Assembly: GCF_900537085.1 (NCBI RefSeq)
Contig: NZ_UNRE01000006.1
Span: forward strand, 310,001 to 374,000
Reading direction: 5' to 3'
Length of the DNA stretch: 64,000 nucleotides
DNA from: Agarivorans sp. Alg241-V36
Lineage (GTDB): Bacteria; Pseudomonadota; Gammaproteobacteria; Enterobacterales; Celerinatantimonadaceae
The translations under genes and the position numbers were made by a program. This document shows positions 7,160 through 59,945 of this stretch, one piece after another. How positions within the stretch are numbered: position 1 is the first letter of the stretch; each line of letters begins with the position of its first letter. A model generated the notes under the pieces. It was not told where the DNA came from. It saw nothing but the letters and a program-made list of their open reading frames with translations, and did not search any database.

Positions 7160-7174
7160 GTGCTTAGCGTTTTT

Positions 7175-8800
7175 CTAGTCCAGTTGTGGACCCGCTGCTA
7201 CTAGGGCTTCACCTTCTGCATTGTCGGTGTACTTGGCAAAGTTTTTGATAAAGCGTTGGGCTAAATCTTCGGCTTTGCTTTCCCACTGCAATGGATCTTG
7301 GTAGGTATCGCGAGGGTCGAGAATCTCGCTGTCGGCACCGGGTAACGTGGTAGGTACTTCTAGATTAAAGATTGGCAATTGTTTGGTGTCTTGCGTTTCG
7401 ATTGAGCCATCTAAAATGGCGTCAATAATTGCACGAGTATCTTGAATCGAGATTCGTTTGCCTGTGCCATTCCAACCGGTATTGACTAAGTAAGCCTCGG
7501 CACCTGCCGCTTCCATACGTTTAACTAATACTTCGGCGTATTTAGTTGGATGTAAGGTTAGGAAGGCTGCACCAAAACACGCTGAGAAAGTAGGTGTTGG
7601 CTCAGTAATGCCTCGCTCAGTACCGGCTAGTTTGGCGGTAAAGCCAGACAAGAAATGGTACTTAGTTTGCTCAGGCGTAAGCTTAGCAACGGGCGGCAAT
7701 ACTCCAAAAGCATCGGCAGTTAAGAAAATCACTTTCTTAGCATGACCGGCTTTAGATACTGGCTTAACGATATTCTCAATGTGATTGATTGGGTAAGAAA
7801 CACGAGTATTTTCGGTTTTAGAACCGTCGTCGTAGTTTACGCTACCATCGTTGCGCACCGTTACGTTCTCTAACAAAGCATCACGTTTGATAGCATTGTA
7901 GATATCGGGCTCGGCTTCTTTACTTAACTTAATGGTTTTAGCGTAGCAGCCACCTTCAAAGTTAAATACGCCTTCGTCGTCCCAACCGTGCTCATCGTCA
8001 CCAATTAATTGGCGTTTAGGATCGGTTGATAAGGTAGTTTTACCAGTACCAGAGAGGCCAAAGAAAATGGCGGTGTCACCGGCTTCACCTACGTTGGCTG
8101 AGCAGTGCATAGACGCCATGCCATTAAGCGGTAGGTAGTAGTTCATCATGGCGAACATGCCTTTCTTCATTTCGCCGCCGTACCATGTACCACCAATCAC
8201 CTGCATTTTTTCTGTCATGTTAAATACGGTGAAGTTTTCTGAGTTTAGGCCGTGTTCTTTCCACTTTTTGTTGGTGGTTTTAGAACCGTTCATCACTACA
8301 AAGTCTGGCTCGTAGTCCTCAAGCTCTGCGGCTGTTGGGCGAATGAACATGTTGGTTACAAAGTGAGCCTGCCATGCCACTTCAACAATAAAACGTACTT
8401 TTAAGCGAGTATCAGGGTTAGCACCACAGTATGTATCAACCACAAATAAGCGTTTACCAGATAGTTGGTCGGTCACGGTTTGTTTTAGGTCGGTCCAAAC
8501 CGCGGGGTCTATTGGCTTGTTGTCGTTTTTAGCTTGTTCTGAGGTCCACCACATGCTGTCGCGGGTGGTATCGTCTAGAACGATGTATTTATCTTTTGGG
8601 GAACGCCCAGTGAAGATCCCTGTGTCTACGGCAACCGCACCAGTGTTGGTGACAATACCGCGTTCGTATCCGGTAAGTTCCGGTCGAGTTTCTTCCTTGA
8701 ATAGTTCTTCGTATGAGGGGTTGTACACCACGTCCGACACATCTTTGATGCCGTATTGAGCCAGGTCGATAACCTGATCTTTTTCTGCAACGTCAAGCAT
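7175..8800 (-). CDS. pckA: Phosphoenolpyruvate carboxykinase (ATP)
   Basis: 541 residues, normal for ATP-type PEPCK. The P-loop [11 protein letters not shown] lies about residues 249-259, with the metal-binding [17 protein letters not shown] segment after it and the RSPKDKYIV substrate region near residue 65. It converts oxaloacetate plus ATP to PEP in gluconeogenesis. The gene sits downstream of hslO on the same strand but across 179 bp of non-coding DNA, so it has its own promoter. The order pckA-hslO-hslR-gspC matches Vibrio and relatives. Confidence 0.98.
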
Positions 8801-8942
8801 AGCAGTCTCCTGTAGGTAGAGAGGTAAGATTTATATTGTTTTTTTAATTGGTGTTGGCTCTGATTCTATCCCTTTAGTGGTACCAAAAAGAGAGGGGCGT
8901 CAAATTACCAGCACTTTTTTTATGGTTATTAGGGGTCTATCT

Positions 8943-8970
8943 AGGAAATGCGATTTGCACCGCATTTCCT
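8943..8970 (-). terminator. Hairpin after hslO
   Basis: A perfect 10-bp stem (AGGAAATGCG/CGCATTTCCT, 8-base loop) begins 9 bases past the hslO stop codon. There is no U-tract, so it may stabilise the 3' end rather than terminate on its own. Confidence 0.5.
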
Positions 8971-8979
8971 GAAGTCAGT

Positions 8980-9861
8980 TTAATGAATTTTGGCAGGGTT
9001 TGTCGATATATTACGCGTGAAAATGTTTTCAACGTCGGCTTCGTTAAAATTATAGTCATGTCCACAGTAGTCACAATGCATCGAAATATGGCCTCTTTCA
9101 TGGCAAATTTCGAGCAATTCTTTGTGGTCAATGTTGGCTAAGGCGGTTTCACAGCGCTCTCTTGAACAAGTGCATTTAAAGCAAACGTCTTGCGGCTCGT
9201 AAACGCGAACTTTATGTTCGTGATACAAACGAAATAGTAATTGCTCAGCGTCTAGCTCAAAACTTTCTTGGGCGGTGGTGGTTTCACTTAAGGTGGTAAT
9301 TAACTCGAAGTGTTCGGCATCTTCATCTTTACTGGCTGGCAAGGCCTGTAAGAATAAGCCGCTGGCGTGAGGGCGACCCTCAAACATGCCTGTAAACAAC
9401 CATAGGCGAGTATTAAGTTGTTCCGATTGCTGGAAGTAAGCCTCAATACTGGCGGCTACACCTTGCGGGTTTATCTCAACAATACCTTGGTAGCGCTCGC
9501 CTTGGGTGGGCGTAATGGTAATCACAATGTGGCCTTTCCCAACTAGCTCAGCAAAGCTGATATTAGGATCGATGGCGCCTTGGTAGCGCGCGACACCACG
9601 CATTTGTTGTTGGTCGGTGCCGCTTACTGCTAATACGCTTAACGGGCCATCGCCTTGTAGTTGCACAGTAATGTCACCTTCAAACTTTAAAGTGGCAGTG
9701 AGCAAACAAGTGGCCGCTAGCATTTCGCCCAATAGAGTTTGTACAGGCGCAGGGTAGTTTTGTTGATCGATGATTTCTTCGTAGCTTTGCTGCAACTGCA
9801 CTAACTCGCCACGGAGGTTGTAATCTTCGAATAGGTAACGGTTAAGAATGTCTTGCTTCAT
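8980..9861 (-). CDS. hslO: Redox-regulated chaperone Hsp33
   Basis: 293 residues, family length. The redox switch is intact: CxC (FKCTCSRERC near residues 229-238) and CxxC (HCDYCGHD near 264) bind zinc when reduced and form disulfides under oxidative stress, which turns on holdase activity. The N-terminal domain begins with the typical RYLFEDYNLRGELVQL. It follows hslR by 12 bp and is probably co-transcribed with it. Confidence 0.97.
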   Translation of the reverse strand: MKQDILNRYLFEDYNLRGELVQLQQSYEEIIDQQNYPAPVQTLLGEMLAATCLLTATLKFEGDITVQLQGDGPLSVLAVSGTDQQQMRGVARYQGAIDPNISFAELVGKGHIVITITPTQGERYQGIVEINPQGVAASIEAYFQQSEQLNTRLWLFTGMFEGRPHASGLFLQALPASKDEDAEHFELITTLSETTTAQESFELDAEQLLFRLYHEHKVRVYEPQDVCFKCTCSRERCETALANIDHKELLEICHERGHISMHCDYCGHDYNFNEADVENIFTRNISTNPAKIH

Positions 9862-9873
9862 AAGTAGGCCTGA

Positions 9874-10269
9874 CTATTGTTGTTTAAACTGAATAATTTG
9901 CCGACGCTGCTTTTTATCGGGTCGGCGTTCTGGGCTGGCACTTTGTGCCATGAGCTTGCGTTGCATTGCATATTGTTCGCGCTTTTTAAGGCTTTGTTCT
10001 GTTTCTTGGTAAAGTAGTTGAGCTTGTGGCGCTGGGCCGCGTTTGTCGCTTAACTGCTCAACCACTATTTCTATTTGTTGCTGGCCTTGCCATAAGCTAA
10101 TAGTAGCACCCACTTCTACATTTTTACTTGGCTTACAGCGTTGTTGGTTATAGTGCACTTTACCGCCCATAACCATGTCACGAGCAAGCCCTCGAGTTTT
10201 ATAAAATCGTGCTGCCCACAACCACTTATCAAGGCGTGGTGCAGAGTTGTTAGAGTTTTGTGAATTCAT
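9874..10269 (-). CDS. hslR: Ribosome-associated heat-shock protein Hsp15
   Basis: 131 residues with an N-terminal S4 RNA-binding domain (LDKWLWAARFYKTRGLARDM about 14-33, then VHYNQQRCKPSKNVEVG) and a basic C-terminal tail. Hsp15 binds free 50S subunits carrying nascent chains. Family length and the hslR-hslO pair are as in E. coli. Divergent from gspC across 258 bp. Confidence 0.96.
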   Translation of the reverse strand: MNSQNSNNSAPRLDKWLWAARFYKTRGLARDMVMGGKVHYNQQRCKPSKNVEVGATISLWQGQQQIEIVVEQLSDKRGPAPQAQLLYQETEQSLKKREQYAMQRKLMAQSASPERRPDKKQRRQIIQFKQQ

Positions 10270-10527
10270 GCTAAGTCTTGGCTGGCTTATATAATATCTA
10301 TTAAATTATATCAGTTTTATACGTGTAAGCGATGTCACGGATTAGTGCGTTATCCAGCAGAAAACTGATAAAAGTCTAATTAAATGCAAAATTTACACTT
10401 GCAGCACTTGTTCTGCGCCTAAGTCCCTTTAGAATGAAGAACCCTCTCTATGAGGCGCTTTGCAATAGTTTTTTCATAAGGATGATCGAGAATCGGTTAA
10501 CGATGACAGATGTATTATAACGAATAA
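10270..10527. other. Divergent hslR/gspC promoter region
   Basis: 258 bp AT-rich region between two operons, expected to hold the heat-shock operon promoter leftward and the secretion-operon promoter rightward. I cannot assign -35/-10 boxes with confidence. No good Shine-Dalgarno is visible before the gspC ATG. Confidence 0.4.
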
Positions 10528-11415
10528 ATGGATATTAAATCTTTTTCAACTCAAGTTGCGCGTTACGTTCCTTCTCAAAAGAGCAGCGTATTAATCACAT
10601 TACTATTGATGTGTTTTGCCGCTTATCAGCTGGCGTCTATTACTTGGTTATTAGTGCCAACGCCTTCGCCGGCTTTTCGCTGGGTTCCTCAGCAGGTACA
10701 AACTAGCAATAAAGCGGCTCAAGTTGATTTATCTAGCCTTACCAAGTTGCATTTGTTTGGTGAATATCAAGCAAAAAAAGCCAAGCCGGTTGTTCAAGCG
10801 CCTTCGTCAACTGATGCACCCAAAACCTCATTAAAGCTAACCCTTTCTGGTTTGGTGGCGAGTAGCGACCAAACTAAAGCCCTGGCCATTATTGAACACC
10901 GCGGTAAACAACAGACTTACGGCGTAGATGAATCGATTAATGGTACTCAAGCTGTAATAAAAGAGATTCAAACTGACCGGGTGATTTTATTGCATCGCGG
11001 TGTTTACGAAAGTTTATTGTTAGATCCTGAAGACAAAAAGTCGCAATCTCGGTCTAGTTCCAATACCGCTAAACGCAATACCAAAGCGCCTAGCAACGAT
11101 CGTTCGGCCAAGGTCGACGTAAAAGAAGTATTAAAAGACCCTTCAAAGCTTACCGATTACATTCGTATTTCGCCGGTTCGTAAAGATGGTGCCTTAAGTG
11201 GTTATCGGATTAATCCCGGTAAAAACGCCGCCTTATTTAAACAAGTGGGCTTAAAAGCTAATGACTTAGCTGTAGCTCTTAATGGATATGACCTGCGCGA
11301 CAACGCGCAAGCAATGCAAGTGATGCAAGAAATGGCCGAGCTAACGGATATTACGGTAACCGTAGAACGCAATGGCCAGTTGCAGGATGTGTTGTTCAGC
11401 CTGCCAGATGAATAG
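10528..11415 (+). CDS. gspC: Type II secretion inner-membrane protein GspC
   Basis: 295 residues: cytoplasmic N-terminus, one membrane helix (about 20-40), a Pro/Lys-rich linker, the homology region that contacts the secretin (TSLKLTLSGLVASSDQTKALAII, about 96-118), a second basic linker rich in Ser/Asn/Lys, and a C-terminal PDZ domain (RISPVRKDGALSGYRINPG onward). It joins the inner-membrane platform to the GspD channel and may take part in substrate choice. First gene of the twelve-gene operon gspC to gspN. Confidence 0.96.
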   Translation: MDIKSFSTQVARYVPSQKSSVLITLLLMCFAAYQLASITWLLVPTPSPAFRWVPQQVQTSNKAAQVDLSSLTKLHLFGEYQAKKAKPVVQAPSSTDAPKTSLKLTLSGLVASSDQTKALAIIEHRGKQQTYGVDESINGTQAVIKEIQTDRVILLHRGVYESLLLDPEDKKSQSRSSSNTAKRNTKAPSNDRSAKVDVKEVLKDPSKLTDYIRISPVRKDGALSGYRINPGKNAALFKQVGLKANDLAVALNGYDLRDNAQAMQVMQEMAELTDITVTVERNGQLQDVLFSLPDE

Positions 11416-11434
11416 TACCGGAGATTTATTTAAC

Positions 11435-13546
11435 ATGAAGTTGCACGCCTTACGCTTTATTCGCCACAGCCTTGTTGGCCTAATTGGATTAGGCCTTTGT
11501 GGAATCGTGAGTGCCACCGAGTATTCAGCCAATTTTAAAGGTGCTGACATTAGTGAGTTCATCACCACGGTTGGTCGTAATCTCAATAAAACCATCATCG
11601 TAGACCCCGCGGTACGCGGCAAGGTTAATGTACGTAGTTACGATTTGCTTACCGAAGAGCAGTACTATCAGTTCTTTTTAAGTGTGCTAGATGTATACGG
11701 CTTTGCGGTTATTGATATGCCAAACGGCGTAACCAAAGTGGTACGCGCCAAAGACGCCAAAGCGGGAGCGATTCCGGTGGTTGACCGTGATGATCAAGCT
11801 TTAGGCGATGAAATGGTGACCCGCGTGGTGCCGGTGCGTAATGTATCGGTGCGTGAGTTGGCGCCATTATTACGCCAGCTAAATGATAATGCTGGTGGCG
11901 GTAACGTAGTGCACTACGATCCTTCCAACGTGATTATGCTTACTGGCCGCGCCGCGGTGGTTAATCGCTTAGTTGAGATTATTCGCCGAGTAGATAAAGC
12001 AGGTGACCAAGAAGTAGATATCATTCGCCTCAAGTTTGCCTCTGCTGGTGAGCTGGTACGTATTATTGAATCGCTAACGGCAAGCACTGGCGGCAAAGGT
12101 GCATCGGCCAGTTTGTTAATACCTAAAGTGGTTGCCGATGAGCGGACCAACAGCATTGTGGTATCGGGCGAACCAAGTGCTCGAGCACGAATTGTACGTT
12201 TAGTGGCAAAGCTTGATAGCGAATTAGAAACCTACGGTAATACCCGTGTTTTCTACTTAAAGTATGCTAAAGCTGGCGACTTGGTCGATGTACTTAAAGG
12301 CGTAAGTGAAACCGTAGCAGCAGAGGCAGCTGGCGGTAGCAAAAAGAGTTCTTCCAGTAATTCGCGTGGTAATTTCTCGATTGAAGCCCACGAAGATACC
12401 AATACCTTGGTAATCACCGCTCAGCCAGACAACATGCGCACCTTAGAAGGTGTGATTAATCAGCTTGATATTCGTCGCGCCCAAGTTAACGTAGAGGCCA
12501 TTATTGTTGAAGTGGCCGAAGGTGACGGTATTAGCCTTGGCGTACAGTGGGCGACTAAAGCGGGTGGTACTCAGTTTAATGATGCCGGTGTATCGATCAG
12601 TGAAATTGGCGCAGGTATCTACGATGCTCAACCAACGGAAGGGTCGCTGGTTACAAATACTGATGGTTCATCGGTACAAAACCCAGACACTCCTGGTGAT
12701 ATCTCTGGCTTAGCCAGTGCCTTGGCTAAAATTTCTGGTGCAGCTTTTGGTTTTTATGGTGCTGATTGGGGCGTGTTAGTGCAAGCGGCGGCTAATGATT
12801 CGCGTTCAAACTTATTAGCCACTCCGTCTATTACCACCCTAGATAACAAAGAAGCCTTCTTTACTGTGGGTGAAGAAGTTCCGGTACTAACCGGCTCTGC
12901 TTCTAGCAGTAGCAACGATAATCCTTTCACTACCGTTGACCGTAAAGAAGTGGGTATCAAGCTAAAAGTAACGCCACAGATTAACGAAGGTGACGCAGTT
13001 CAGTTAACCATTGAGCAAGAAGTGTCGAAGGTACAAGGTCAAACCTCTGTCGATGTTGTATTTGCTAAACGCCAATTGCAAACCACGGTATTAGTAGACA
13101 GTGGCGATACCATTATTTTAGGCGGTTTGTTAGACGACCAAATTGAAGAAAGTGAATCTAAAGTACCATTACTGGGCGACATTCCGGTATTAGGTCACTT
13201 GTTCCGTTCAACTAACTCGAAGAAAGTTAAACGTAATTTGATGATCTTCATTCGCCCCACCATTATTCGTGACTCAGTAACCATGCAAAGTGTTAGCTCG
13301 CGTAAGTACAGCCAAATTCGTGCTCAGCAGTTGTTGCGTGAAGAGTTAGGCGTGGTGCTAATGCCAGACACTAAAGTGCCAGTATTACCAGAGTTCAACT
13401 CGGTCGATGACGTATCTCCTGAAGTTCAAGAGTACATCGACTACTTAAAAGAAAAGAACGAGCGCTTAAAGAAAGAAGAAGCTGAGAAAGCGGCAAAAGA
13501 AGCCGAAGCAGCGGCTGCTAACGAAGAGCAAGTGAGTGCCGAGTAA
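11435..13546 (+). CDS. gspD: Type II secretion secretin GspD
   Basis: About 703 residues from the ATG at 11435, which follows CCGGAGA and begins a signal peptide ([18 protein letters not shown]...SA|TEYSANF). An in-frame upstream start at 11372 would put 21 residues before the signal and is rejected. N0 to N3 domains are followed by the secretin barrel ([27 protein letters not shown], and the LGGLLDD region). It forms the outer-membrane channel. The last 30 or so residues are an unusual Glu/Ala/Lys-rich helix beyond the S domain. The stop overlaps the gspE start by one base. Confidence 0.97.
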
Positions 13547-53165: not shown

Positions 53166-53342
53166 ATGAAAGCGGCAAATATAAACCGTATCTTAGTGAC
53201 CAGTCGCGAAATGATCATTTTTGACCGAGTGGAGCAATACCATTTGCTTCATTCGCGCATTTTAGAAAAGCTCGACACGCCTAATTTAAGCAATAAACGT
53301 TTTAGTTGTAGTTACTATCAAACCTTGAGAGAACATACATGA
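53166..53342 (+). CDS. Possible small protein gene overlapping the DUF1254 gene
   Basis: A 58-residue frame (starting MKAANINRILVTSREMIIFD, ending YQTLREHT) whose TGA stop forms an ATGA overlap with the next gene, the usual sign of translational coupling. No good ribosome-binding site precedes its ATG, and the protein is not one I know. It may be a true leader gene, or the tail of a lost larger gene. Confidence 0.35.
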   Translation: MKAANINRILVTSREMIIFDRVEQYHLLHSRILEKLDTPNLSNKRFSCSYYQTLREHT

Positions 53343-54385
53343 TGAACAAATTTTTAATTGCCCCTCTTGCCTTAGCCACTTTGAGTATATCGACCATTGC
53401 TAATGCTCAAACAGAGGTGACTCGCGATAATTATATTGTGGCTGAAACATCTAAATATTTTGCAGTAACCGAAGCTAAAGCAACGGATGGTGTAAATTCT
53501 TGGCGGCATTTTCGTGTACCACCGTTAACCGAAGATCAACCTATTGTTCGAATGAATCGTGACACCATTTACTCAACAGCGGTTGTAGATACCGAGAAGG
53601 GAGCCAGTGTAACCCTTCCTGACTTCGGTGAGCGTTTTGTTATGGTGCAGTTTACTGATGAAAACCATCAAACTTACGATATGGTATATACCCAAGGTAA
53701 CGAAACCCTAGAAGTGCCAAGTTCAACCAAGTTTATGTTTGTTATGGTGCGAGCGTATTTACCAAATATTCATGATAAACAAGAGATTGCAGAGCTTAAC
53801 AAGTTGCAAGATAAGCTAGTAATTGATGCTGCCTCTAGCGATGATTACCCAATCTTTGCGGGCTACGACTTAGCGACTTTAGCAGCCAAGCTTGAGCCTG
53901 TGAAAAAAGGCATACTAGAAGAGATAGCAGCACAAGGCGTTGGCGATTCAGAAAAAATGTTTGGCACTAATGATTACACTACTGCAGAAAAGCGAATTCA
54001 AGGGGCTGCTTACGGCTGGGGCGGCGCCACCTTTAAAGACAATGTGTATCAGTACTCTGCTAACTTTGAAACAACCGAGTGTCACTCGGTGACCTTTGAA
54101 GATCCTAAGAATAAAGGTTTTTGGTCATTCACCGTTTATAACGATGATGGCTTTATGTTTAATGATGACGCCAGCACCAACAGCGGTGTAGCTAAGCCAA
54201 ATGCAGATGGCAGTTACAGCGTGCATTTTGGTTGTGATGAAGCAAAATACGGCGCAAACAACATTCCATTAACCGGGCTTAAAGAAGGTCAAGAGTGGAA
54301 CGTATTGGTTCGTCACTATGCACCAAGCAGCCAACTCGCCGATAAAAACATCGACCCGAGTAAAGGTATCATGCCCAGCAAATAA
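53339..54385 (+). CDS. Exported DUF1254/DUF1214 protein
   Basis: 348 residues with signal peptide (cleavage about 24, ANAQ). DUF1254-type start (PIVRMNRDTIYSTAVVD near 63-79) and DUF1214-type end (KGFWSFTVYNDDGFMFNDD near 260-278). Such proteins are periplasmic or secreted and lack a settled function. Double ATG start; overlaps the small ORF by 4 bp. Confidence 0.85.
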   Translation: MMNKFLIAPLALATLSISTIANAQTEVTRDNYIVAETSKYFAVTEAKATDGVNSWRHFRVPPLTEDQPIVRMNRDTIYSTAVVDTEKGASVTLPDFGERFVMVQFTDENHQTYDMVYTQGNETLEVPSSTKFMFVMVRAYLPNIHDKQEIAELNKLQDKLVIDAASSDDYPIFAGYDLATLAAKLEPVKKGILEEIAAQGVGDSEKMFGTNDYTTAEKRIQGAAYGWGGATFKDNVYQYSANFETTECHSVTFEDPKNKGFWSFTVYNDDGFMFNDDASTNSGVAKPNADGSYSVHFGCDEAKYGANNIPLTGLKEGQEWNVLVRHYAPSSQLADKNIDPSKGIMPSK

Positions 54386-54435: not shown

Positions 54436-55061
54436 AGTTTGCACCGAGCATCCAAGCGGATCCTCCGATAAACTTTTCCCAAGTCTAACTGCCTTAAGCT
54501 AGTTTTTAACTCGCTTATTTGCAAATTGAAGTATCCGATTTAATCTGAAGGAGTACAAAAAAATGGTGAGATATGACATCGCCATTATATTAGATGTAAG
54601 TGGCTTTATTCAGTCGTTATCTTTAAGCTCAGCCTTAATTTGCACCATTCTTTTTTCAAGGCTTTTCTGAAGTGATAAGGCCTGAGAACCCTAGGCTTTT
54701 TCTAGGTTCCCAAAATACCGCTGCTTCCACCCTGACTCGAAAGTGCCCCATTATGAGTTTGCGCAACAGAATAGTGTGTTTTTCATTCAGGAATACACCC
54801 TACAATTACTAATGAGTGAGCTTGTAAAACAGCTTTCTGAGTGATGTGTTCACATCAAGCTCTTAACCTTACGACTCTCGTGAAATTGCAAGTATAAGCG
54901 GGTAAAAGTAGATATACCGAATCCAGCCTCATGGCTCGGCTTCTTCTTGGAATACGGTCAATGACAGAAGTGTCACACATGAAGTCTAACAGTTGGTGTA
55001 TAGTTAATCCGCAAGCAACTTTAGCGAGTTATGATGGATAGATCGCTAAAGTGCATGTCTA
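54436..55061. other. Long non-coding stretch in the accessory block
   Basis: About 630 bp. It holds one weak 35-codon frame (54563-54670, with AAGGAG ten bases upstream) and a 10-bp stem ACTTTAGCGA/TCGCTAAAGT with a 15-base loop (55018-55052) just past the YjbR-like gene. No attC site or transposon end was recognised. Confidence 0.4.
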
Positions 55062-55424
55062 TCATTGAGGTAAGCCAAGCGTTGCTTGTTTTCGTTTACT
55101 TAGTGCTGAGGAGACTATTCGATAGGATTCAGACAGGTAATACTTCAGCTCTTCATCAAGTTTCCCGTCGGTGTCGGTTTGCTGGATCCATTTCATCCCT
55201 CGACTAGCAAAGTATGGAGCAGGACGGTAGCCATCATGGTTACACAAAAACTCATAATTCAGGTTCGATGCTTTGAATGTATATGCTGTCGTGCCTTCTT
55301 TTAAAGTAAAGCCAATTGCATACACCTTTCCTCCCACCTTCCACACATGTGAGTTTCCCCATTGCATGACATAGGTTGAGGATTTTAAAGCTTCACAAAA
55401 TTGATTGAATTCATCGTGTTTCAT
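55062..55424 (-). CDS. YjbR/MmcQ-like protein
   Basis: 120 residues, usual size. Pattern of the family: MQWGNSHVWKVGGKVYAIG near 20-38, then a basic surface and WIQQ near 80. These are small double-wing proteins with a presumed DNA-binding fold and no firm function. Same strand as the small membrane gene upstream, 103 bp away. Confidence 0.82.
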   Translation of the reverse strand: MKHDEFNQFCEALKSSTYVMQWGNSHVWKVGGKVYAIGFTLKEGTTAYTFKASNLNYEFLCNHDGYRPAPYFASRGMKWIQQTDTDGKLDEELKYYLSESYRIVSSALSKRKQATLGLPQ

Positions 55425-55473
55425 ACCCCTGTATTCCTTATCTGATGCTTTTTAAGCTACTTAGCTCACTTTA

Positions 55474-55500
55474 GCTACATTGGCTACATTGGCTACATTG
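55474..55500. repeat. Three copies of a 9-bp repeat
   Basis: GCTACATTG occurs three times in tandem between the YjbR-like gene and the small membrane protein gene. Confidence 0.85.
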
Positions 55501-55527
55501 GCTTTATAAGTGAAAAAGCGAAAGCTT

Positions 55528-55911
55528 TTAAGAAGCGGACTTTCCTAAAATCAGAGACATAACTGGAATCCCCGTTATTTTTGAACTTCCGATTATGTAG
55601 ATTGTGGCAGCGAGCAGATCCATTAATGAAATAGGAATAAATGCCATTGGCGCGATACCAAGTAAAGCGGCATAGCTGACAACGAAGAAGCCAAAAAGTC
55701 GAACAAGGCCATTCCAAACAATTATAGGAGCACGGCTAGGTAAGTCTGAGACAGCCCAAAGTAATGCTGCCCCGATACTTATAAAGAACGAAGCGAGTAC
55801 AAGAGTAACAATGAATGAACTTGGCTTAGGAGAAAGAAGCTCAGGGATCATGATCCCAATCGCGACAGGAAAATTAAAAATGGCGGTAATTTGTACAAAC
55901 TTCTTAAACAT
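55528..55911 (-). CDS. Small four-helix membrane protein, putative member of the TetR regulon
   Basis: 127 residues from the ATG at 55911; a TTG four codons earlier is the alternative, and neither has a clear ribosome-binding site. Four hydrophobic helices (about 9-28, 35-57, 66-90, 95-113). I do not recognise the family. Its upstream region carries the same -35/operator/-10 arrangement as the tetR and dehalogenase promoters nearby, so it is probably under the same repressor; it could help uptake or export of the inducing compound, which is inference. Confidence 0.6.
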   Translation of the reverse strand: MFKKFVQITAIFNFPVAIGIMIPELLSPKPSSFIVTLVLASFFISIGAALLWAVSDLPSRAPIIVWNGLVRLFGFFVVSYAALLGIAPMAFIPISLMDLLAATIYIIGSSKITGIPVMSLILGKSAS

Positions 55912-55953
55912 ATTCCTACTCAATCATTTGAATGTATCGGTTGACTAGGATTT

Positions 55954-55982
55954 ATTTTGTAGTGATCAGTAAGTAATGTCAA
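55954..55982 (-). promoter_or_regulatory. Promoter P1 with TetR-type operator
   Basis: Leftward: -35 TTGACA (55977-55982), 17-bp spacer, -10 CAAAAT (55954-55959). The 12-mer TACTGATCACTA (55960-55971) fills the end of the spacer. Precedes the small membrane protein gene. A second related 12-mer (TAGCGATAACTA) lies at 55990-56001. Confidence 0.6.
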
Positions 55983-56356
55983 TATTTTTTAGCGATAACT
56001 ACAAAATAGGTTTCACCCCTTATCCTCGTTGCAAATCAATCACACAGACTGCATGAAGAATTCACTTATGCTCTGTCATTTACCAGAACAACAAAAAAAA
56101 GAGTTTGCCAACTTACAACAAGACTCAAACGGCGATACTCACCATAACAATAAGCGACACAAACTCCTTCACCCATTCTCTCCCCAATCAAAAGAAAGGG
56201 TTGTTAGAACTAATTCTGCATCGTTCACTAAAAAATATTTAGTTATAGCTTTGACATTACTTAGTGATCGATACGGAATATTCACCCTGGCGTGGTTGCA
56301 ACAAATATGGCTGATATTACTGGTTTAAGTGAAATGGCATCGTCACCACAATAGTA
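55983..56356. other. Regulatory and possibly deleted region between P1 and tetR
   Basis: Contains the second operator copy (55990-56001), a 99-codon frame (56029-56328) that looks spurious, and promoter P2. No known gene lies downstream of P2 before the tetR end. Confidence 0.5.
56251..56279 (+). promoter_or_regulatory. Promoter P2 with TetR-type operator, no recognisable gene behind it
   Basis: Rightward: -35 TTGACA (56251-56256), 17-bp spacer containing TAGTGATCGATA (56262-56273), -10-like CGGAAT. Only a 15-codon frame (MADITGLSEMASSPQ) follows before the convergent tetR gene. Confidence 0.55.
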
Positions 56357-56959
56357 TTACTGACCGCTGCTAGTCTGTATCGAATTGAGTGCGTAGTCCA
56401 TGACCGATACTGCAACTTGCTGTGACTCACCCGCTCGAATCTGAGTAGAAAGCCCATAAAGAACCGATAGCAGGTATTTTGTCTGCAGTTCTGCGGTCTC
56501 AGACTCAGTTATTACACCCTCAGACTCGATCAAGGTAGTGATCAGCTTTTGGGTTTTCAATCCAAATTGATTGATGTACACCGTCGCTTCCTCAGGAAAG
56601 GCAACGCTGTCAGACTCATTGACGCTTTTTACTAATAAACACCCCAGCGGGGTATCAGCATCTGAAAACTCTTGAATTAGCTCATAGAAACACGCTCGTA
56701 GCCTTTCTATGAAAGGCGCGTCTGAAGGCTCTGTGATATGGCGATAACACGGGTCAGTATATTGCGTGATGTAATGCGCGATCACTTCTTTGAATAGCTT
56801 CTCTTTGTTGCCAAAAGCGGCATACAAGCTAGGCGTATTGATCCCAAGTTCTGAGGTTAGATGCGCCACAGATGTAGCTGTATAACCGTTGTTCCAAAAT
56901 ATGCGCATTGCCTTATCGAGTGCGATATCTCTGTCAAACGCCCTTTTTCTTCCTACCAT
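56357..56959 (-). CDS. TetR-family repressor
   Basis: 200 residues. N-terminal helix-turn-helix (ATSVAHLTSELGINTPSLYA near 28-47, then AFGNKEKLF). The rest is the ligand-binding helical domain. Divergent from the haloalkane dehalogenase gene across 196 bp; its own promoter and that of the dehalogenase both carry the shared 12-bp palindrome. Most likely a local repressor of the dehalogenase genes, itself and the small membrane protein gene, released by a halogenated compound or its product. The ligand is inferred. Confidence 0.88.
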   Translation of the reverse strand: MVGRKRAFDRDIALDKAMRIFWNNGYTATSVAHLTSELGINTPSLYAAFGNKEKLFKEVIAHYITQYTDPCYRHITEPSDAPFIERLRACFYELIQEFSDADTPLGCLLVKSVNESDSVAFPEEATVYINQFGLKTQKLITTLIESEGVITESETAELQTKYLLSVLYGLSTQIRAGESQQVAVSVMDYALNSIQTSSGQ

Positions 56960-57000
56960 TACCGATGGTACTCCTACCTAAAGTATATTGATTGATACCT

Positions 57001-57029
57001 ATTTTGTAGTACTCACTATAAAATGTCAA
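57001..57029 (-). promoter_or_regulatory. Promoter P3 (tetR) with operator
   Basis: Leftward: -35 TTGACA (57024-57029), 17-bp spacer, -10 CAAAAT (57001-57006). Operator 12-mer TAGTGAGTACTA at 57007-57018, within the wider palindrome ATTTTGTAGT/ACTATAAAAT. Confidence 0.65.
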
Positions 57030-57034
57030 TTTCG

Positions 57035-57063
57035 TTGTTGACTTTACTTATCGATCGGTACAG
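57035..57063 (+). promoter_or_regulatory. Promoter P4 (dehalogenase) with operator
   Basis: Rightward: -35 TTGACT (57035-57040), 17-bp spacer holding TATCGATCGGTA (57046-57057), -10 CAGAAT (57058-57063). Confidence 0.65.
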
Positions 57064-57079
57064 AATTTATCCATACCAT

Positions 57080-57091
57080 TTGTATCGATCA
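57080..57091 (+). promoter_or_regulatory. Additional TetR-type operator before the dehalogenase gene
   Basis: TATCGATCACTA, two changes from the consensus TAGTGATCACTA, lies 17 bp past the P4 -10 box and would block elongation or add cooperative binding. Confidence 0.5.
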
Positions 57092-57155
57092 CTACATAAT
57101 ACCAATGACCGTGCAGATGACTTTATGAATACCAACCAATTTGTAGGAAATAATA

Positions 57156-58061
57156 ATGACGATTAAAGCATTAAGAACTCGAGAAGAGCGTTTTTCAGTA
57201 CTCCCTGCGTTTCCTTATCAGCCTAATTATGTTGATGATCTCAGCGGATATGAATCGCTGCGAATGGCGTATATCGATGAAGGTGATAAAAACTCGGAAT
57301 ACACATTTCTCTGTTTGCACGGTGAACCAACATGGAGTTATCTATATCGTAAAATGATCCCAGTTTTTACTGATGCAGGTCATCGTGTTGTTGCCCCTGA
57401 TTTATTCGGCTTTGGCCGCTCAGATAAGCCTATTGAAGACTCTGTGTACAACTTTGAGTTCCACAGAAACAGTCTAATTCAATTAATTGAACGCTTAGAT
57501 CTTAAAAATATTGTGTTGGTTTGTCAGGATTGGGGAGGGGGCCTTGGTTTGACGATACCAATGGATATGCAAGATCGTTTCAAAAAACTTATTGTGATGA
57601 ACACTGCTATCTCAAATGGTGAACCGCTGGCTGAAGCCGCAGTACAGTGGATGGCTCTTAATGAAACAATTTCAGAATTACCAGTAGCAGGGGTCATAGC
57701 ATGTGATGCTGGCGCAGCTGTCAATGTGATGGATGCAATTGCGTATGACGCGCCATTCCCTGACAAAACCTACAAAGTTGGCGTGAAACGATTCCCACAG
57801 ATGATCCCAACGAATGCGGATGATGATGCGGTGAAGTATGGACTTCGTGCGATTGAGTTCTGGTCAAATGAATGGAGCGGTGAAAGCTTTATGGCGATAG
57901 GAATGAAAGATGCAATCTTAGGTGAGGCAGCGATGATGCAACTAAAAGCGGTGATCAAAGGTTGCCCTGAGCCAATGAAAATTGAAGAAGCGGGTCACTT
58001 TGTTCAAGAGTATGGTGTTGAAGTAGCAGAGCAAGCTCTTGCTTCATTTACTATGATTTAG
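57156..58061 (+). CDS. Haloalkane dehalogenase, subfamily I type
   Basis: 301 residues, alpha/beta-hydrolase fold, no signal peptide. Nucleophile D125 in LVCQDWGGGLGL, oxyanion loop HGEPTW (55-60), acid D252 in GMKDAILG, base H281 in EAGHFVQE. W126 and W165 (VQWMALNE) can form the halide-binding pair; YKVGVKRFPQMI is a subfamily I cap segment. It should hydrolyse a carbon-halogen bond to an alcohol and halide. ATG seven bases after AGGAAA. Followed by an SDR gene, with a strong hairpin between; divergent from tetR. Confidence 0.9.
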   Translation: MTIKALRTREERFSVLPAFPYQPNYVDDLSGYESLRMAYIDEGDKNSEYTFLCLHGEPTWSYLYRKMIPVFTDAGHRVVAPDLFGFGRSDKPIEDSVYNFEFHRNSLIQLIERLDLKNIVLVCQDWGGGLGLTIPMDMQDRFKKLIVMNTAISNGEPLAEAAVQWMALNETISELPVAGVIACDAGAAVNVMDAIAYDAPFPDKTYKVGVKRFPQMIPTNADDDAVKYGLRAIEFWSNEWSGESFMAIGMKDAILGEAAMMQLKAVIKGCPEPMKIEEAGHFVQEYGVEVAEQALASFTMI

Positions 58062-58084
58062 TTGTACTCATTCAGCCCTGACAT

Positions 58085-58118
58085 ATGCTCAAAAATGCTC
58101 ATAAGCATTTTTGAGCAT
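58085..58118. terminator. 15-bp hairpin between dehalogenase and SDR genes
   Basis: Perfect stem ATGCTCAAAAATGCT/AGCATTTTTGAGCAT with a 4-base loop. No T-tract follows, so it is more likely a processing or attenuation element than a full terminator. Confidence 0.6.
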
Positions 58119-58188
58119 GCCGTATTGTTCTAAACACAGTGAACTTACAAACCAATCTTCCGAGAAGTTAAACCTAGGAATCAGTTAT

Positions 58189-58929
58189 ATGAAGACAAAT
58201 ATTGAAAACAAAGTAGTTGTAATTACAGGCGCAAGCAGTGGACTAGGTGAGGCAATGGCTAGAAAACTGGCTTCTCAGGGTGCAAAAGTGGTGTTAGGTG
58301 CGCGCCGCATTGAAAAACTGGACGCGATTGTTGCTGAAATTCAAAGCGAAAATGGTCAGGCAGTAGCATTGGCAACAGATGTCACTATAGGTGAGAGCGT
58401 TAAAGCACTGGTTGACTTGGCAGTAACGACGTTTGGTCGCGCAGATGTGATGATCAATAACGCTGGTATTATGCCGCTTTCACCTTTAAGTGCGCTGAAA
58501 GTACAAGAGTGGAATGACACCATCGATGTGAATATAAAGGGTGTACTTAATGGTATTGCAGCTGCACTTCCAGTGTTTGAGCGACAAGAAACTGGTCACT
58601 TTATTAACATTTCCTCTGTTGCTGGTCATAAAGTTTCGCCAGCGAGCAGTGTGTATGCAGGTACTAAATTTGCCGTTCGTGCAATTAGTGAGGGGCTACG
58701 TATGGAGGTAGGTCGTAATATTCGCACAACTGTCATCTCACCTGGACTTATTGATTCTGAGCTTAAACATGGCACCTCAGATGCAACGATCTCTCAATTT
58801 GTGAATGAGGTGTATAACGATGCCATTTCAGCGACGTCTATCGCTAATGCTGTCGCTTATGTGATTGAACAGCCAAACGATGTTGATGTAAACGAGATTG
58901 TACTGCGCCCTACAGTACAAGAGTTTTAA
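58189..58929 (+). CDS. Short-chain dehydrogenase/reductase
   Basis: 246 residues from the ATG at 58189 (AGGAAT upstream); the frame is open 26 codons further but those overlap the hairpin. NAD(P) site TGASSGLG near 13-20, NNAG near 89, catalytic Ser in NISSVAG near 141 and YxxxK in [10 protein letters not shown] near 154. Genomic context suggests that it oxidises the alcohol made by the dehalogenase. Same strand, 127 bp after it. Confidence 0.88.
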
Positions 58930-59254
58930 CTGGCACTAACAGTATGTGTGGTCGATATGACGTGTGTCGACCATGATCTGTTGTAATGGATGAGTAATTT
59001 TGGACACCTGATTAGAGGTTTTCAATACCTCAGGTAGTCCATGAACTGCTAATTTAGAAGAAGCACTGACACAGTTCTGTCCAAAAATGAGCTACCTAGA
59101 CTCTTCGTATCCTTCTTTATTCCAACCTCTGCTTATTTGTGATGTACGTCAAAAAATATAGGGTGTAGTTTCAAAGTAGCGGAAAGAATTCCAATGAAAC
59201 TGAAACCTACAAATAAGTCACTGATTTAGATAAAGCCTTGCTTCATTATTTATG
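58930..59254. other. Right end of the accessory block
   Basis: Holds a small stem TGGTCGA/TCGACCA (about 58957-58981), a possible SDR terminator, and a 91-bp segment with short inverted ends described separately. Confidence 0.4.
58998..59086. repeat. Short segment bounded by TTTTGGACA/TGTCCAAAA inverted repeats
   Basis: Two perfect 9-bp inverted ends bound a non-coding segment. The sequence looks like joined ends of an insertion sequence that has lost its transposase, but the repeat is short and could be chance. Confidence 0.3.
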
Positions 59255-59290
59255 CTGTATATACTAACAGTGTGCTGTATAAACCTACAG
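59255..59290 (+). promoter_or_regulatory. Two SOS boxes upstream of lexA
   Basis: CTGTATATACTAACAG (59255-59270) and CTGTATAAACCTACAG (59275-59290) both fit the LexA box CTG-N10-CAG, ending 7 bases before the start codon. Two adjacent boxes are the known plan for lexA autoregulation. Confidence 0.93.
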
Positions 59291-59297
59291 GTAAATT

Positions 59298-59945
59298 ATG
59301 AAGCCCTTAACACCTCGTCAAACCGAAGTCTTTGAACTTATTCGCCGCCATATTTCCGATACCGGAATGCCGCCAACTCGCGCAGAAATTGCCAAGGAGT
59401 TAGGCTTTCGCTCAGCTAATGCGGCGGAAGAGCACTTACGTGCTTTAGCTAAAAAGGGCGCTATTGAGATGATCCCGGGGGCTTCGCGTGGTATCCGTTT
59501 AAGTGAAGCGTACTTGCCCGCCAGTGCCAATGAGTCTGCGGCCGAGGAAGCAGAGCCGGGTTTACCTTTAATTGGCCAAGTGGCTGCCGGTGAGCCTATT
59601 TTGGCGCAAGAACATGTAGAGTCGCACTATGCGGTAGATGCTAACTTGTTTAACCCTCATGCAGATTATTTGCTGCGGGTGCAAGGTATGAGCATGAAGG
59701 ATATTGGCATAATGGATGGCGATTTACTGGCTGTGCATAAAACCAATGATGTTCACAACGGCCAAGTGGTGGTGGCGCGTTTAGAAGACGATGTTACTGT
59801 TAAGCGTTTTGAGCGCGACGGTAAAATGGTTTACTTGCATCCAGAGAATGAAGAGCTCTCTACTATTGAAGTTGATTTAGAATATCAAAGCATCGAAATA
59901 GAAGGTTTAGCGGTAGGTATTATTCGCACTGCCGATTGGATGTAA
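59298..59945 (+). CDS. lexA: LexA repressor
   Basis: 215 residues. Winged HTH ([20 protein letters not shown] near 26-45), self-cleavage site Ala97-Gly98 (GQVAAGEP), catalytic Ser132 (GMSMKD) and Lys169 (VTVKRF). About a dozen residues longer than E. coli LexA, mostly in an acidic linker ([14 protein letters not shown]). RecA-stimulated self-cleavage opens the SOS regulon. Preceded by two SOS boxes; a strong terminator follows. Confidence 0.98.

Follow-up and report, generated by a model that had tools for sequence, protein, structure and literature searches.

The region at positions 55954-57098 of a 64,000-nucleotide stretch of Agarivorans sp. Alg241-V36 DNA (the window) raises the question of whether the promoters around a TetR-type repressor gene, tetR, and a haloalkane dehalogenase gene, HLD, belong to one regulon, and whether that regulon answers to a halogenated compound. 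The original prediction had proposed as much from one operator design repeated at four promoters, P1 to P4. Our analysis makes it rather probable that the locus holds a TetR detoxification regulon that controls itself and was gained by horizontal transfer; an organohalide or its product is a plausible inducer. The candidate control sites are as follows.

55954-55982, minus strand: P1, TTGACA-17-CAAAAT, with an operator at 55956-55975 within it (center 55965.5), facing the membrane-protein gene; matrix score 34.1.
55986-56005, no strand: second operator-like palindrome by P1, 30 bp away center to center; palindrome score 20.0.
56215-56234, no strand: operator-like palindrome, the seventh, with the P2 operator 43 bp away; matrix score 18.3, palindrome score 15.2.
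56251-56279, plus strand: P2, an orphan promoter, operator 56258-56277; matrix score 33.8.
57001-57029, minus strand: P3, the tetR promoter, with an operator at 57003-57022 within it; matrix score 38.6.
57038-57066, plus strand: P4, the promoter ahead of HLD and the adjoining gene SDR1, with an operator at 57045-57064 within it; matrix score 33.5.
57079-57098, no strand: third operator of the tetR/HLD gap, 3' of P4 and 34 bp from the P4 operator; the top palindrome of the window, score 25.1.

All four promoters have the architecture originally described, a TTGACA/T hexamer, a 17-bp spacer, and CAAAAT, CGGAAT, or CAGAAT, with a near-palindrome inside the spacer. The coordinates first given for P1, P2, and P3 were exact; those for P4 (57035-57063) and for the last 12-mer (57080-57091, now 57083-57094) lay 3 bases too far left, and the site at 56215-56234 had been overlooked. 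The 12-mer proposed as the repeated element is present in the spacers but is the core of a wider palindrome of about 20 bp, and the putative operator is a 20-bp palindrome with the consensus TTTGTAGCGATCGCTACAAA (training sites symmetrized). The -10-like hexamers are alike partly because the right arm of the operator extends into the CARAAT hexamer. Three operators, spaced 42 and 34 bp, occupy the tetR/HLD gap. P1, P3, and P4 precede genes as had been said, but P2 does not head an intact gene.

Support for these sites comes from a comparison with other genomes. A scan of genome contigs gave 41 loci, 16 of which (L037 to L052) have a TetR at 55-97%, with the other 25 at 27-38%. We built a promoter weight matrix from the tetR control regions read in 18 related loci: 17 distinct TTGAC-type promoters remained once the window, the odd-spaced L039, and L037 and L042, which are almost identical to the window, had been set aside, and divergent promoters lacking TTGAC (L039, L041, and L043) are outside the training set. 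Loci that supplied training promoters score high by construction and are therefore no test. In the 64-kb window, the matrix from other loci ranked P3, P1, P2, and P4 as the top four, with a wide gap, and so the motif search that had been suggested as a check came out in favor of all four promoters. The next ranks fall in the same locus, at 57077-57105, 55979-56007, and 56213-56241 (20.8, 20.4, and 18.3), and are followed by matches overlapping these companion sites or P2 (12.6 and 10.2); outside the locus no site scores above 7.8, the maxima of three mononucleotide shuffles being 6.6-7.8. Two composite patterns, searched with up to 3 mismatches in the 4.7-Mb genome, matched solely P1, P2, and P4 and solely P1, P2, and P3, respectively, with 0 matches to the reversed control in each case. 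The signal is the composite of -35, palindrome, and -10 in fixed register. A symmetrized palindrome scan placed the seven best palindromes of the window all in 55956-57098 (15.2-25.1; next, 13.2). Because a score of 18.2 arose in one of five shuffles, the weaker palindromes lack significance alone and count solely via their position and conservation.

All 18 related loci read have a tetR promoter of the same design (in L039 its spacer is one base longer), and 15 of them have a TTGAC-type divergent promoter, the exceptions being L039, L041, and L043. Operator spacing was measured in 14 tetR control regions (the window, L032, L037-L047, and L052; L031 and L048-L051 were left out), where O2 and O3, one operator per divergent promoter, are 41-43 bp apart in every instance. 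O1 and O2 are 31-35 bp apart in 12 of the 14, the third operator lying beyond the divergent promoter; L039 and L043 have no O1 above the palindrome threshold of 5.5. One additional weak palindrome is found in each of the control regions of the window and L042 (6.2 and 6.8). Since 42 bp corresponds to four turns of the helix, the repressors bound at the two divergent promoters would share one face of the DNA and may act together.

The same spacing recurs away from tetR. A gene pair encoding short-chain dehydrogenases/reductases (SDRs), SDR3-SDR2, is found in L038, L040, L041, and L043 (SDR2 being interrupted in L043), and ahead of SDR3 in all four loci is a second control region with spacings of 34-35 and 42-43 bp. 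This region aligns with the tetR control region across the -35 boxes, which stand back to back, and its tetR-side promoter has decayed; the window tetR/HLD gap (57013-57100) matches the L040 SDR3 region at 73.9% over 88 bp (blastn, E 4.4e-8). Because the spacing matches and the flanks can be aligned, the repeated design appears to have arisen by copying of the entire control cassette, beyond the single site, ahead of other genes. P2 and the site at 56215-56234, which lie 43 bp apart, would make up one such control-region copy, in which 56215-56234 is probably the decayed tetR-side half. The duplicated control cassette offers a clear case of regulon growth by copying of cis-regulatory DNA.

The regulator that very likely controls these predicted operators is the product of the neighboring tetR gene.

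56357-56959, minus strand: tetR, CifR/NemR-like repressor; PF00440; Cys107 conserved.

The protein has an N-terminal helix-turn-helix (PF00440, 46.7 bits versus a cut-off of 24), and its model is all-helical (pLDDT 82.7), with TetR-type regulators as the best fold matches. The nearest solved relative by sequence is CifR of Pseudomonas aeruginosa (6nsn; E 1.9e-24, residues 3-191; ~29% identity), and in the fold search CifR chains took ranks 1-5 and NemR rank 8. C107 corresponds to the Cys of the NemR GCLxVK motif and does not vary among 18 family members and NemR; it also aligns with a Cys changed in the C99T-C107S-C181R CifR mutant named in the title of PDB entry 6nsm. Identity to Escherichia coli NemR is 16%, too low for close similarity, and the 10 NCBIfam matches include no NemR model. 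Epoxides release CifR from DNA (PMC8244358), and derepression in AltR, a NemR relative, requires a conserved Cys (PMC13178969). That C107 senses electrophiles is a reasoned guess.

The genes under this putative control, with one RNA feature, are the following.

57156-58061, plus strand: haloalkane dehalogenase (HLD, or HLD1), subfamily I; NF002043, 325.8 bits versus a cut-off of 265.
58084-58119, plus strand: hairpin with a 16-pair stem, z -3.79, within the 127-bp HLD-SDR1 gap.
58189-58929, plus strand: SDR1, short-chain dehydrogenase/reductase; PF00106, E 8.5e-54.
55528-55911, minus strand: small membrane-like protein with four long predicted helices, model pLDDT 90.2, recurring beside tetR.
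55062-55424, minus strand: yjbR-like gene; PF04237, E 7e-11.

D125-W126 (in QDWGG), D252, and H281 of HLD are invariant in 12 of 12 intact copies aligned and are matched in the 1hde alignment; after DhlA, we presume them to be the nucleophile Asp with its adjacent Trp, the acid Asp, and the catalytic His. HLD is identical at 288 of 301 residues (95.7%) to PDB 7avr, "Haloalkane dehalogenase 1," which we take to be DpaA of Paraglaciecola agarilytica. DpaA is cited as a tetrameric subfamily-I enzyme in PMC10503415. For SDR1, no operator of its own was found, none of the 14 sites listed by the matrix scan being near it. The hairpin between the two genes is a possible attenuator or RNA stabilizer; the match to L037 ends at its foot, at 58083. 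On the other side of tetR, the window copy of the membrane protein has no Pfam match, with weak ones (best E 0.0074) in two of three members, and it has no PDB fold match at E ≤ 0.001. The yjbR-like gene is also a neighbor in L037 and L042, and homologs of 54-55% lie near tetR in L050 and L051; it is probably cotranscribed with the membrane-protein gene from P1. Between the two, at 55474-55503, is a tandem repeat of GCTACATTG in 3.3 copies.

We propose that the CifR/NemR-type TetR would bind a palindrome of ~20 bp that occupies the spacer between -35 and -10 and extends into the -10 hexamer, and would thereby block RNA polymerase at tetR itself (P3), HLD-SDR1 (P4), the membrane protein-yjbR pair (P1), and the orphan P2. 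An electrophilic organohalide or its product would release the repressor, perhaps via Cys107, whereupon the dehalogenase would remove the halogen and the SDR would handle the alcohol or carbonyl product.

How far the inducer can be called halogenated depends on what accompanies tetR elsewhere. HLD1 was tallied over 17 loci (the window and L037-L052; L044 was not judged, since its contig ends there) and is intact in 12, in each of which it runs away from the tetR control region. All seven of L046-L052 hold HLD1, HLD2, and AlkD-like genes on one strand, away from tetR, and we infer their cotranscription, with the qualification that HLD2 in L046 and AlkD in L048 are each in two pieces and that the L051 AlkD lies more than 1 kb further on. 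In L047, HLD2 scores 368.9 bits against an equivalog cut-off of 241, and the AlkD-like protein matches PF08713 at E 4e-20, its nearest solved chain being AlkD (E 4.2e-7). The likeness of HLD to a solved enzyme and the HLD2 and AlkD-like genes of these seven relatives make the halogen link plausible.

Several observations weigh against a single halogen-responsive TetR regulon. In L039, L040, L041, and L043, tetR is open but HLD1 is broken into fragments or frameshifted, a pattern of repeated loss; dehalogenation is therefore not the sole selected role. More distant TetRs adjoin SDR2-like genes, at 53% in L096, 50% in L070, and 46% in L034, and the HLD query had no match in L034 or L070 (L096 was outside that search); several of these distant TetRs also have TACCGATCGGTA-type palindromes. 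SDR1 is truncated in L037, the L052 membrane gene has an in-frame stop, and the hairpin may uncouple SDR1 from P4. L037 and L042 are nearly identical in DNA and thus not independent. A plain sigma-70 scan of 54600-59300 found 7 sites, compared to 11.3 in shuffles, and did not detect P2. We have also dropped the bare 12-mer as evidence: allowing up to 1 mismatch, the genome has 11 occurrences of it versus 21 of the reversed control, without genome-wide enrichment, and within the window it shows a mild excess at up to 3 mismatches (35 versus 21.6 expected, 1 of 100 shuffles being as high).

The likeliest alternative keeps the TetR regulon but gives it a nonhalogenated electrophile or carbonyl (a quinone, aldehyde, or epoxide) as the natural inducer, with the SDRs as the core and the dehalogenase as a late, dispensable passenger. 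The four decayed copies of HLD1, the SDR2-like neighbors of more distant family members, and the response of CifR to epoxides (PMC8244358) all speak for it, as do the nitroreductase, DsbA-like, and ABM genes near tetR in L047, but the 12 intact HLD1 copies with their uniform orientation, and the second dehalogenase and AlkD-like gene in all of L046-L052, speak against it; we regard this alternative as possible but somewhat less than likely. An organohalide or related electrophile remains a plausible inducer, weakened by the dehalogenase decay in the four relatives. As to the claim of one halogen-responsive regulon, the part that the comparison supports well is the single TetR regulon, with the same tetR, the same operator-in-spacer promoters, and shuffled partner genes in other genera; the inclusion of P2 did not carry an intact gene with it.

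The DNA behind P2 suggests what this promoter once served.

56281-56351, plus strand: SDR2 remnant, 23 codons in 71 bp directly 3' of P2; the remainder is deleted.

This segment is 86-90% identical in DNA to the SDR2 interior of L038, L040, L041, and L043, and its translation in the correct frame, HPGVVATNMADITGLSEMASSPQ, corresponds to HPGVVATDMADLAGFSDIASSPQ of the L040 SDR2. SDR3 and most of SDR2 are missing, the SDR2 stub almost touches the 3' end of tetR, and L037 and L042 carry the same deletion scar. P2 has the appearance of a promoter left behind when an SDR operon was deleted, the counterpart of the SDR3-SDR2 promoter of the relatives. On this evidence it was rejected as the promoter of a working gene. 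The open reading frame (ORF) at 56029-56328 (99 aa) is also unlikely to be a gene: it has no family match, its frame is split in L037, and its protein identity to L042 is 59%, though the surrounding DNA is >90% identical. It could be argued that P2 is a live repressor-controlled promoter whose antisense transcript into tetR lowers repressor synthesis on induction. P2 is directed at the 3' end of tetR, a distance of ~78 bp, its strand has no terminator-like site up to 56761, and it is identical in L037, with both hexamers kept in L042; however, its -10 is weak (CGGAAT) and is missed by the sigma-70 scan, the three copies represent one recent lineage (91.9-95% DNA identity), and a deletion scar explains P2 simply, so that we consider a live P2 improbable. 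It is very improbable that the palindromes serve a different regulator or represent mobile repeats, unbound by the neighboring TetR, for although 8 places in the genome, its own copy included, match the TetR at E ≤ 0.001, the composite sites accompany tetR in other genera, occur nowhere else in this genome at 3 mismatches, and have arms that track the tetR clade (TA-type in the window clade, GAA-type in L031, L032, and L046-L051, and mixed in L052).

The TetR regulon, as we read it, lies on an island.

54674-59066, no strand: island; in G001, a genome of the same genus, its place is taken by 717 bp with no listed match, between collinear flanks (95% and 96%).

The 95% match to L037 starts at 54744, and sharing extends to 59091; the L037 record, from Methylophaga, is a metagenome-assembled genome, so its host is uncertain. 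Records of L037-L052 are named as Methylophaga, Shewanella, Vibrio, Oceanisphaera, Marinomonas, Granulosicoccus, Amphritea, Psychromonas, Pseudoalteromonas, Psychrobacter, and Paraglaciecola. At the level of the order, 6 of 394 genomes match the TetR at E ≤ 1e-30, its own included, with L031 and L032 at 55-56% and three at 33-35%; at the level of the class, 2 of 369 match at 1e-50, again with its own included; and among the genomes listed, neither the six of the genus nor the five others of the family have a match at 1e-30, only ~30% paralogs at weaker E. The genes for TetR, membrane protein, dehalogenase, and SDR recur in shuffled order and varying content in other gammaproteobacteria, and the gene set was probably acquired horizontally. 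The window SDR1 is 91-92% identical to those of the vibrios L044 and L045, whose tetR is only 57-58% identical, a mosaic arrangement.

A carrier was sought among plasmids and viruses. The whole island had no megablast match on plasmids, and blastn gave 162 records, none over 80% of the query. Among 60 rows spread over this ranking, those with 64-67% identity over 10-17% of the query fall on SDR1, and those with the best identity (80-92% over 1-2%) fall on the island right edge, in Vibrio plasmids. This edge (~58982-59093), at 74-92% over 47-108 bp in unannotated stretches of Vibrio plasmids, is perhaps that of a mobile element; it carries TTTTGGACACCTG and CTGTCCAAAA in inverted order. Viral contigs held 119 pattern stretches, none of which encodes a TetR relative. 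At the left edge (54673-54725), ~50 bp are repeated at several places in the same genome and in G001, G003, and G006, making it a dispersed repeat. Just outside the island, at 53339-54385, is a gene for a DUF1254/DUF1214 protein, a 37% homolog of which lies near tetR in L044. Beyond tetR in L047, positions 7172-12514 hold nitroreductase, a third dehalogenase-like hydrolase, DsbA-like, and ABM genes, and a LysR-like gene by reading of the annotation; this is a larger detoxification neighborhood.

Put more boldly, the loci might represent a mobile alkylation-stress regulon of marine gammaproteobacteria, in which a Cys-sensing TetR detects halogenated alkylators (e.g., from seaweed) and induces dehalogenases, SDRs, and AlkD-like DNA repair, with genes recruited by copying of the three-operator cassette; this we offer tentatively, as an idea with less than an even chance of being right. 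In PMC10919026, haloalkane dehalogenase genes are the most abundant target genes in macroalgal metagenomes, which makes the natural inducer ecologically interesting. If the inducer is an organohalide, the repressor would be a ready biosensor. The regulation of haloalkane dehalogenases seems little described: a dehalogenase review (PMC6100074) has nothing on repressors in the part available, and our search, conducted largely without subscription journals and so no proof of absence, found no paper joining haloalkane dehalogenase, DNA alkylation, and AlkD.

TetR repressors that act through operators in a divergent promoter are textbook knowledge, and DhaR-dhaA of Rhodococcus is a case of a TetR-type repressor of a haloalkane dehalogenase. 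For a comparison with DhaR, no Rhodococcus record stood among the 25 of 141 rows listed, and the annotation shown for two Rhodococcus plasmid neighborhoods of distant TetRs gives a SnoaL/NTF2-type neighbor and no dehalogenase. A TetR gene divergent from a subfamily-I-like dehalogenase, as in the window, also occurs on pDCA of Xanthobacter flavus and on Roseovarius pTHAF8_b; those dehalogenases are 51-54% identical to the window enzyme. However, these repressors have no significant BLASTP match to the window TetR (best E 1.5 and 2.3) and the window-type operator is absent (best promoter-model scores 2.8 and -2.7), so the pairing was apparently made independently. The pDCA TetR/dehalogenase gap (L093:3916-4005) has palindromes of its own, GTAGGTCAGGCGACCTAC and TAGGTCACCCGACCTA, which are candidate operators for the pDCA dehalogenase.

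The closest parallel is CifR-cif of P. aeruginosa, in which a TetR repressor of an epoxide hydrolase operon is likewise divergent from an alpha/beta-hydrolase operon, and whose repressor is the top sequence and fold match and has the equivalent Cys. The window system differs in that its target is a haloalkane dehalogenase with an SDR, and in having an operator in every spacer and a third site; by analogy, it would work like CifR-cif, its repressor being of the same branch by sequence and fold and its response a prediction. NemR of E. coli shares with it the Cys of the GCLxVK motif, and autoregulation and control of stress genes are described for the Cys-based TetR repressors to which NemR and AltR of Pantoea ananatis belong (PMC13178969), but these two have other operators and enzymes, and the identity to NemR is low, as noted above. 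The switch itself is of a known kind, and what some relatives add is further dehalogenases and an AlkD-like gene behind the same putative control.

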